Of a stretch of 64,000 nt of DNA, positions 37,293 through 38,828 are shown piece after piece. How positions within the stretch are numbered: the stretch's first letter is position 1; the number at the start of each line of letters is the position of its first letter. Both the position numbers and the translations under genes were made by a program. Under the pieces are notes generated by a model. It made no database searches and was not told where the DNA came from. It was given only the letters and a program-made list of their open reading frames with translations. This stretch comes from an unicellular cyanobacterium SU2 (GTDB lineage: Bacteria; Cyanobacteriota; Cyanobacteriia; Cyanobacteriales; Microcystaceae), in the NCBI GenBank assembly GCA_002110465.1, contig NEED01000069.1, positions 268,564-332,563 of the forward strand, written 5' to 3'.

Positions 37293-38828
37293 ATGAGCGA
37301 TGATCTTTTAGCACAGCTAACTGAAGCAAAAACTGAGGAAGAAAGCTGGAAAATAATTATTCAAAGTTATTTTCAAACTCTTCCTGAAAAATTATCAAAA
37401 GCTGTGTGGACAATCGCTGTCCCTCATTGGTTTAACGAGTCGATTTTACGAGCATTATTTCCAGACTCAAAGAATGATCTTAGAGAAATATATCAACAAC
37501 TGGTAAAGCTTCCTTTTGTTCAAGATTTTCCAGAAAGAGGTCATAATATTTTTCAATCAAATCGTCAAGCAATTTTACGTAATTTATGGAAAGAAAATAG
37601 GAAAAAATTTATAAATATATCAACACTAGCTAAAGAATATTTTAAACAATATCGTGAGAAAAAAACTGAAGCTCAAATTGAATACCTTTATCATTTAGTT
37701 GTAGTTAATTCTGAGCAAGGGGCAAAAGAGATAAGAGAAATATGTGCTGAATGGAATAATAAATTTTGTTTTGCTGAACTAGAATATTTAGTAAATTCTT
37801 TATTAGAACAAGTTGAAGAAAATCGTGTTCAAGGATTAGCTAAAGCTGTCATCTTCTACCGTCAAGCAAGAGCAGCTTTACGTCTTGATCAACCTTCTGA
37901 AGTCTTGAAAGAAATATTACAAAATTTATACATAGCTGAAGAAATATTGCACAAATATCGTGATAAAAACCTTCAAGCTGATATTTTACAAACAATCGGT
38001 GATACATTAATATCTCTTAATAAATATCAAGAAGCAAGAGAAAAATACCATCAGTCTTTGGAATTATATAAAGAACAGGATGATAGTTTAAATATAGCTA
38101 ATGTTCTACAGTCTCTTGGTACAGTATATTGTAAATTACAAATATGTAGAGAGTCTTTGGGGTATTATGAATCTGCTCTAAATTTATTTTATAAAATTGA
38201 TGATGTATTAGGACAAGCTAATACTTTATCCGCAATAATGGATGTCTTAAAAAACTATAATTTATTTGATGATAAATCTTGTGAATTGTCTGAAAAAATT
38301 CACTCTCACGTCAGTCGCTCCTCAATTTATACTAAGGTAGTTGGTCATAGAGTCAAATATTATGCACCGAAAAGACTATATTTATTATTCCAAGAAAAAG
38401 CAACGAAATTATATAGTGATTTAGGTTATACGTTTATCAATACAACTATTCAAGATAGAACAGAGAAAATAAACAAAGAAAAACCTAGTTCTAAAGGACG
38501 GAATCCAATAATACATTTTTCAAAAACATCTACCATAATTCCAAGGGAAATACCAGATTTAATTAAATATCCTATTGTTACAGAAAAAGCTACTATTTTG
38601 CTTGAAAATAATAAATATGTTTTTACTGTTAAACCTAGTGCAATCAAACCAGATATAAAGAAAGCAATTGAGACTCTATTTGATGTGAAAGTTATCAAAG
38701 TGAATACCCAACATCTACCTAAAAAAAAGACAAGAAGAGGAAACTTTATCGGTTATAAGTCCCATTACAAAAAAGCTATTGTTACTCTAGCTGAGGGTGA
38801 TAAGATTCCACTGTTTCCAGAAGTTTAA
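37293..38828 (+). CDS. Winged-helix/TPR protein with C-terminal ribosomal protein uL23 domain
   Basis: 511 aa. Residues 1-115 are a helical, winged-helix-like region typical of what follows a STAND NTPase core (QLVKLPFVQDFPERGHNIF). TPR-type helical repeats span about 160-320 (ILQTIGDTLISLNKYQEAREKYHQSLELY is a clear unit). A basic linker (340-420) leads to residues 421-511, a nearly complete uL23: LIKYPIVTEKAT, LLENNKYVFTV, IKKAIETLFDVKVIKVNT, the basic hairpin PKKKTRRGNFIGYKSHYKKAIVTLAEGDKIPLFPEV. Only a short N-tail of uL23 is absent. It is in frame with no stop. No other ribosomal protein gene is nearby, so this is an extra copy in a fusion, not rplW itself. Confidence 0.88.
   Translation: MSDDLLAQLTEAKTEEESWKIIIQSYFQTLPEKLSKAVWTIAVPHWFNESILRALFPDSKNDLREIYQQLVKLPFVQDFPERGHNIFQSNRQAILRNLWKENRKKFINISTLAKEYFKQYREKKTEAQIEYLYHLVVVNSEQGAKEIREICAEWNNKFCFAELEYLVNSLLEQVEENRVQGLAKAVIFYRQARAALRLDQPSEVLKEILQNLYIAEEILHKYRDKNLQADILQTIGDTLISLNKYQEAREKYHQSLELYKEQDDSLNIANVLQSLGTVYCKLQICRESLGYYESALNLFYKIDDVLGQANTLSAIMDVLKNYNLFDDKSCELSEKIHSHVSRSSIYTKVVGHRVKYYAPKRLYLLFQEKATKLYSDLGYTFINTTIQDRTEKINKEKPSSKGRNPIIHFSKTSTIIPREIPDLIKYPIVTEKATILLENNKYVFTVKPSAIKPDIKKAIETLFDVKVIKVNTQHLPKKKTRRGNFIGYKSHYKKAIVTLAEGDKIPLFPEV

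Follow-up and report, generated by a model that had tools for sequence, protein, structure and literature searches.

A complete uL23 module on a probable split STAND-like receptor beside a cyanobacterial caspase-like gene, a possible bacterial integrated decoy

Introduction

Why should a complete copy of ribosomal protein uL23 form the end of a receptor-like protein encoded directly behind a caspase-like gene? The question is raised by a locus of the unicellular cyanobacterium SU2, located in the 64,000-nucleotide stretch of contig NEED01000069.1 that was analyzed here and is referred to as the window. On the ribosome, uL23 docks trigger factor. An earlier note, made from the letters of the window, described an in-frame fusion of uL23 to a winged-helix/TPR protein in a caspase operon, compared the protein with STAND-like receptors, and suggested that the ribosomal part could serve as a bait, an anchor or a sensor in a system of a kind not described before. 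In this work, the fusion, the operon and the relatives of its genes have been examined by sequence comparison, structure prediction and phylogenetic analysis. The reading favored here, tentatively and at slightly less than even chances, is a split, NLR-like STAND receptor in which the C-terminal uL23 lures phage proteins that act on the ribosome by binding or modification.

Results

The fusion frame and its uL23 module

The fusion gene is a single frame of 511 amino acids (37293-38828, forward strand) that runs from ATG to stop without interruption in the list of open reading frames of the window and encodes a winged-helix-type domain followed by TPRs and a full uL23 domain (Table 1). Residues 422-506 match Pfam Ribosomal_L23 (PF00276; E 2.7e-30, 105 bits against a cut-off of 30.8) and residues 415-511 match the NCBIfam equivalog NF004368 (144.1 bits against a cut-off of 122), so both scores exceed the curated cut-offs for membership in the uL23 sequence family. 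The best 60 of 141 distinct sequences found among PDB sequences at E ≤0.1 are uL23 chains by name, and the uL23 chains align to the C-terminal part of the window protein. Among the 58 near-invariant positions (90% or more in canonical cyanobacterial copies, here 21), 52 are kept in the window module, the six lost ones being changed from L to I, T to I, A to K, V to R and, twice, R to K. Because so many of these positions are kept, the module could also enter ribosomes.

A second, ordinary rplW, which the earlier note had advised to look for, is present in the S10 operon of the same genome between rplD and rplB (names read from translations). The GC content is even across the join of the fusion (29.6% and 29.7%), and that of the canonical rplW is 40.9%. 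In a search of 39 genomes, including its own, with the uL23 part, the matches listed have frames of 107-134 amino acids and only that of the window is longer (513); a scan of genome contigs gave one match, of 46% identity and restricted to uL23. The same fusion was found in a metagenomic protein, P0002, which is 61% identical over the whole window query, also ends in uL23 and keeps 53 of the 58 near-invariant positions. The earlier note would have given up the fusion had an HMM search found no uL23, or had the fusion occurred only here with a frameshift or an assembly join at about 38550. The models do match, and a join or frameshift is rejected because of the separate rplW and the metagenomic protein with the same fusion on another contig; the frame is single and its GC content even.

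Table 1. Features of the putative operon, in coordinates of the window.
Feature	Position	Strand	Residues	Basis
Alpha/beta-hydrolase-like gene, first of putative operon	34395..35618	+	407 aa	Abhydrolase_6, motif
Caspase-like domain	35629..36438	+	about 1-270	PADLOC; His106 (GGHG), Cys168 (DSC)
STAND-type NTPase domain behind caspase	36466..37230	+	280-534	11-sequence family profile
Winged-helix-type constant domain of receptor	37293..37892	+	1-200	Family profiles A2/A3/A4, model
TPR-like helical array, short	37896..38255	+	202-321	TPR_12, helices in model
Linker, low-confidence, probably flexible	38427..38552	+	379-420	pLDDT
uL23 module, complete, with stop codon	38553..38828	+	421-511	PF00276, NF004368

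No Pfam model named residues 1-200, and a winged-helix profile compared with PDB sequences did not identify this domain; TPR_12 matched residues 230-299 (Pfam, E 3.3e-9). The AlphaFold2 model of the window protein (14-row alignment, mean pLDDT 75.4) is of good quality over the first 300 residues and poorer in parts of uL23, with block means of 79-97 in the winged-helix part and values below 50 at residues 379-424. The best 50 of its 106 Foldseek matches (E ≤0.001) comprise TPR proteins, chains of uL23 (TMt 0.60-0.74, with an rmsd of about 6-7 A in a weak part of the model) and 6mfv, a STAND-TPR protein (TMt 0.27).

The hydrolase-like, caspase-like and NTPase parts of the operon

The hydrolase-like gene (Abhydrolase_6 at E 0.0018, under the Pfam cut-off; an AHSLG nucleophile-type motif at residue 289) ends 10 bases before the caspase-like gene, and the receptor gene begins 2 bases past the end of the gene that precedes it. 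The caspase-like protein has a PADLOC caspase match at residues 10-169 (E 1.9e-10) and the HG and DSC motifs listed in Table 1. The NCBIfam model caspase_w_EACC1 reached only E 0.027, under its cut-off, and the caspase-like protein gave neither a Pfam caspase match nor an identifying match among PDB sequences. For the three operon genes, PADLOC reported only caspase, TPR and a weak VakA.

The earlier comparison with STAND-like receptors overlooked that a STAND-type NTPase domain lies within the caspase-like protein, so that the putative receptor is split over two genes. The domain was recognized by a profile of 11 NTPases of the family (E 1.7e-32 in a one-target search). Its Walker A motif is degenerate and reads VPQGTERD. 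Most relatives have GKT/S at this place: of the 12 NTPase sequences compared, 9 keep it, and those of the window, L059 and L060 have lost it. The loss in the window counts against the split-receptor reading. Compared with PDB sequences, the NTPase profile gave small-GTPase chains as the best 60 of 143 rows, which are taken as generic P-loop matches; the matches of Pfam AAA_16, nSTAND and NPHP3_N to relatives are below cut-off.

In VMAP systems, as described by Kaur et al. (2020, PMC7159879), the caspase always has a neighboring alpha/beta-hydrolase gene. The same pairing, overlooked in the earlier note, is found in the window, with a hydrolase below its Pfam cut-off; MoxR and vWA, which a ternary VMAP-type caspase system requires, were not matched by Pfam in any of the three genes of the operon at E ≤1.

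Surroundings of the operon

No ribosomal-protein gene was noticed among the listed frames of the window (at least 80, 120 or 150 amino acids, depending on the region, so that a small one may have escaped), in agreement with the earlier statement that no other ribosomal gene is near; a rimP/nusA/infB-like cluster lies about 17-22 kb upstream of the fusion gene (names by reading). No defence genes were recognized around the operon when its neighbors were judged by reading. The receptor (29.6%) and caspase (30.9%) genes have the two lowest GC contents among the 29 window frames of at least 250 amino acids. The neighboring gene at 38928-39461 is present in only one (G143) of six genus relatives, and nothing else around it is shared. 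Elsewhere in the window, a 1161-residue protein with an ATPase-like start and WD40-like repeats (9660-13145, reverse strand) reads like another STAND-type receptor, and a low-GC protein of 1638 residues (57204-62120, reverse strand) reads like a non-ribosomal peptide synthetase.

Pairing of the receptor with a STAND-type NTPase

In relatives, a STAND-type NTPase with a length of about 260 amino acids is the product of the gene directly ahead of that for the receptor. The NTPase profile matched 13 of 388 genomes of the order at E <1e-20 (the six best candidates being scored per genome), namely the 12 from the scan with the receptor profile and G581 (whose receptor scored 3.8e-8 in that scan and 1.0e-42 with a wider profile). 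The NTPase and receptor genes are adjacent by coordinates in all 13; seven of these genomes match the NTPase profile of necessity, having contributed sequences to it, and the other six had contributed none. In G668, the NTPase match is spread over two frames. Because one-chain proteins such as G528:C227 are matched by both profiles, the two genes look like the separated halves of a STAND protein. In the other neighborhoods listed, the first gene usually reads as a small membrane protein, which would be a possible effector in place of the caspase. Putative small membrane proteins with a tail of the GN-x-L/I-x-G type were seen upstream of the NTPase in L050 (3010-3495), L053, L061 and others.

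Census of the receptor family

A search of 5.8 billion proteins with the window protein (7998 candidates scored) returned 10 proteins including itself, which, apart from P0002 and P0003, are TPR proteins by precomputed domains. Profiles of the N-terminal domain matched 37 proteins of the database (8000 candidates scored), 6 of 386 cyanobacterial genomes, 29 of 388 genomes of the order (12 at E <1e-20), 53 of 217 genomes in the family of G338 and one of 27 in that of G581; the six genus relatives of the window genome gave no match. With the exception of L034 (the same as L065), the weaker matches in the order are, by reading, NTPase proteins in one long chain, most of which have TPRs. The domain falls into two cross-matching sub-types, type B comprising L065, P0040-P0043, L098 and L099. 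A type-B profile built without type-A sequences matches the window protein (E 1.2e-16), and applied to 377 cyanobacteria it gave no new type-B member.

Among the proteins and loci compared with the two profiles, the census contains 61 that match at E ≤1e-10, of which 60 score at least 230 bits and P0044 scores 69; several genes occur in a shorter and a longer stretch (L005/L050, L006/L051, L007/L055, L008/L061 and L011/L053). A host module was identified in nine of the 60 strong members: the window protein, P0002, P0003, L050, L056, L065, P0043, L055 and P0040. The Pfam scan covered 21 of the 60. A further 24 (P0011-P0039 less five that were scanned) have precomputed Pfam lines that contain none of the named host families, and the last 15 (L052, L054, L057, L058, L062 and L090-L099), several of them cut by contig ends or N runs, were judged by reading. 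Most family members thus examined seem to carry TPRs only. The median number of TPR_12 stretches is 1 in the nine members with a host module and 3.5 in the 12 other scanned strong members, as if the host module replaced the repeats as the sensor.

Several members depart from the common plan. By reading, L098 (3195-6614) and L099 (5478-8807) continue from a type-B winged helix into a TIR-like part and a complete second NTPase with repeats, and G262 contains a one-chain TPR STAND-type gene in two frames. L059 (6480-7883) and L060 (5557-6972) are of the same receptor type, with a partner NTPase that lacks GKT, and their 75-residue C-terminal tail gave no match in scans with domain models.

Host-protein modules in the relatives

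The focus of the earlier note on the ribosome and its exit tunnel proved too narrow, as the relatives carry not uL23 alone but also uS11, uL10 with PsaD, a bS1-type part, PipX and sigma-like parts. P0003, 50% identical over 46% of the query, ends in a complete uS11 (PF00411, E 4.1e-47; NF003698 and TIGR03632 both over cut-off). PipX is present in L050 and L056 (E 6.4e-34 and 3.6e-30, over the Pfam cut-off; for L050, the NCBIfam score is 99 bits, under the cut-off of 125), PsaD and uL10 stand in tandem in L065 (E 1.7e-19 and 1.4e-22, both over the Pfam cut-off; uL10 equivalog at 141 against a cut-off of 85), and sigma-70 region 4 occurs in L055 and P0040 (E 5.7e-8 and 9.2e-8, over the Pfam cut-off; the NCBIfam ECF model is below cut-off in both). 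P0043 (664 amino acids), named "small subunit ribosomal protein S1" in its source, has four S1 domains (E 1.2e-61) before, not after, the winged helix, so that the order is reversed relative to the other fusions on the same theme. Its S1 part is likely, not certainly, bS1, because the S1 equivalog models reach up to 345 bits, all under their cut-offs, and NF040579, the model of one subfamily of S1-domain regulators, narrowly exceeds its cut-off. P0002, P0003 and P0043 come from short metagenome contigs of 5262, 1459 and 3663 bases, respectively. L065 (G581:C351:9000-22000, 5462-6901) adjoins ParA-like genes (names by reading) and is possibly plasmid-borne.

Near-invariant positions are kept to very different extents: 94 of 107 in uS11 (8 canonical copies), 56 of 71 in uL10 (16 copies), 22 and 24 of 35 in the two PipX modules (16 copies) and 35 of 81 in PsaD (14 copies), where 46 are not kept, 7 of them as gaps. 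The PsaD and PipX modules are accordingly much more diverged than those of uL23 and uS11. Besides the rplW of the window genome, separate canonical genes were found for uL10 (rplJ) in G581 and for pipX in G338 and G652. The 16 canonical uL10 frames are of 176-234 amino acids and only the fused frame is longer (481). The PsaD search matched 15 of 16 genomes, and G581 (350 contigs) shows the fused copy only.

History and mobility

The two fused uL23 modules form one clade (100/96) apart from the rplW of the window genome, in a tree in which most other branches are weak. A recent capture from the genome's own rplW is rejected, as that gene groups with those of genus relatives and not with the fused modules. 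In a 38-member tree, carriage of a host module needs six changes (5-7 in bootstraps), or seven by module type; only two are required when well-supported branches alone are counted, and long branches draw a warning from the program. Housekeeping proteins of the host seem to have entered the sensor slot more than once. Because the window protein, P0002 and P0003 group together on this tree (94/99), an exchange between uL23 and uS11 within a single clade is likely.

L053 and L091 are nearly identical, with 10 kb shared at 99.15% identity between genomes of two families, which points to a recent transfer or to contamination of one assembly; a TnpB-like gene lies downstream (by reading). A scan of viral contigs found no relative of the receptor. 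Searches of plasmids returned 59 records for the window protein and 38 for the L065 protein; the matches listed (the best 20 of 59 and 30 of 38) cover the uL23 or uL10 part only, bar one TPR match. A phage or plasmid origin is rejected, as the viral scan was empty and none of the plasmid matches covers 80% of the query.

Discussion

The architecture, the pairing with an NTPase and the recurrence of different modules are observed directly, and around them a mechanism can be sketched in which the role of the system would be immune, the trigger a phage and the effector the caspase. At rest, the caspase-NTPase and the winged-helix protein would form an inactive pair. A phage protein that binds or alters the uL23 module would change the shape of the receptor, upon which the NTPase pair would assemble and the caspase would become active, together with the alpha/beta-hydrolase; the cell would die or stop growing before phages are made. 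The uS11, uL10 with PsaD, bS1-type, PipX and sigma modules would be baits for other points of phage attack, although the sigma-like parts could be DNA-binding outputs instead of bait. The complete, conserved uL23 domain and the His and Cys motifs of the caspase-like protein argue for this reading. Against it count the predominance of relatives with TPRs only, the divergence of the PsaD and PipX modules, the position of the S1 domains in P0043 and the negative outcome of both the reading of neighbors for defence genes and the viral-contig scan. Extended to the family, the proposal, which we hold a little more tentatively, is that these are bacterial integrated-decoy NLRs: mobile, split STAND receptors loading whole copies of host parts that phages seize. 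In this proposal, the constant NTPase and winged helix may have a caspase or a membrane protein as effector partner, and the host parts may comprise uL23, uS11, uL10, bS1, PsaD, PipX and sigma factors. The suggestion of a bait, an anchor or a sensor has gained weight because the relatives carry other host modules on the same N-terminal family; the choice among the three cannot be made from sequence.

A docking anchor is doubtful as an explanation. The module would seat the receptor in the complex from which it is copied (the ribosome, photosystem I, the PII/NtcA network or RNA polymerase), and the caspase would fire when that machine is disturbed. The retention of almost all conserved residues in the uL23 and uS11 modules, basic ones included, fits ribosome docking as well as bait, and each copied protein belongs to, or works with, a large complex. 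However, a fusion would have to compete with an abundant canonical protein, and the losses and gaps in the PsaD module speak against docking. If the anchor were right, this would be, to our knowledge, the first caspase receptor stationed on the ribosome, as we know of no other.

Still less likely is a stress sensor that works without phages, in which the module would gauge how much of its natural partner is available (be it free rRNA, PII, photosystem core or core polymerase) and unbalanced assembly would lead to programmed death through the caspase. PsaD, PipX and ribosomal proteins would report on photosynthesis, on the nitrogen and energy state and on growth, and PipX is reported to be tied to the ribosome-assembly GTPase EngA (PMC8696166). 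The patchy spread, with no match in six genus relatives, and the near-identical copies in two families look like defence, however, and not like core physiology.

That the fusions are useless read-through accidents is improbable: a host module was identified in only nine of the 60 strong members and the donor genes differ, as would suit such accidents, but uL23 occurs in two 61%-identical proteins with nearly all of its conserved positions kept in both, and the tree calls for six changes, of which well-supported branches force two. Least credible is a payload freed when the caspase cuts the linker, the ribosomal protein then poisoning assembly or repressing ribosomal operons, since PipX, PsaD and sigma modules fit no single poison and the first gene elsewhere, among those listed and by reading, resembles one for a small membrane protein or an extension of the NTPase and not one for a caspase, despite the low-confidence linker ahead of uL23 and the caspase-like gene in the same operon.

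If, as the bait reading has it, the modules stand for host parts under attack, the list of integrated proteins predicts which parts phages target; each module would name a point of attack, and the family would be a readable list of viral targets. With the fused modules as hooks for phage proteins, phage effects on ribosomes and photosystems become directly testable. uS11 lies near bS21, and uL10 belongs to the bL12 stalk. Among ribosomal proteins encoded by viruses, bS21 and bL12 are the two most frequent, and they are taken into ribosomes (PMC6375957). psaD is reported to be among the genes of viral photosystem-I cassettes (PMC5019241).

Comparison with known systems

The module resembles ribosomal uL23 in being a full domain with an equivalog score over the cut-off, and differs from it in forming the C-terminal part of a 511-residue receptor-like protein beside a separate canonical rplW. 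Avs (AVAST) proteins sense phage proteins with their C-terminal repeats. The present system resembles these and other bacterial NLR-related proteins in having a putative STAND-type NTPase and C-terminal repeats as sensor; unlike in Avs, the NTPase and the sensor have a gene each, and host proteins can occupy the sensor slot.

In the systems described by Kaur et al. (2020, PMC7159879), S1-like OB domains occur in variable positions, EF-Tu domains stand behind caspases, and inactive enzymes are proposed as decoys in ternary conflict systems. Through the S1-like OB and EF-Tu domains, these systems are the nearest precedent, a partial one; in contrast to them, whole ribosomal proteins, PsaD and PipX are integrated here and MoxR/vWA is not matched in the three genes. 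PipX is absent from the text of that paper, and two of three uses of "ribosomal protein" in it concern Midasin and the S1-like OB fold. The earlier statement that no system of this kind is described holds for the open-licence literature as far as its texts were accessible (including parts of PMC7159879, PMC8195603 and PMC12409349), in which no STAND system of bacteria was found to have entire ribosomal proteins integrated.

The closest parallel in logic is with plant NLRs that carry integrated domains (NLR-IDs). In these receptors, which work as pairs, the extra domain copies a host protein attacked by pathogens and differs between relatives. The family described here likewise has an NLR-like switch with a variable copy of a host protein, that is, a variable host-homologous extra domain on a constant receptor, the feature by which integrated decoys of NLRs are recognized. 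It differs in being bacterial, of a split STAND type and partnered by a caspase or a membrane protein, and in copying ribosomal, photosystem and transcription proteins. The concept of the integrated decoy has been set out for plant NLRs (PMC4246468), in which such decoys were likewise taken up repeatedly, and, if the modules are bait, bacteria share this logic with plants.
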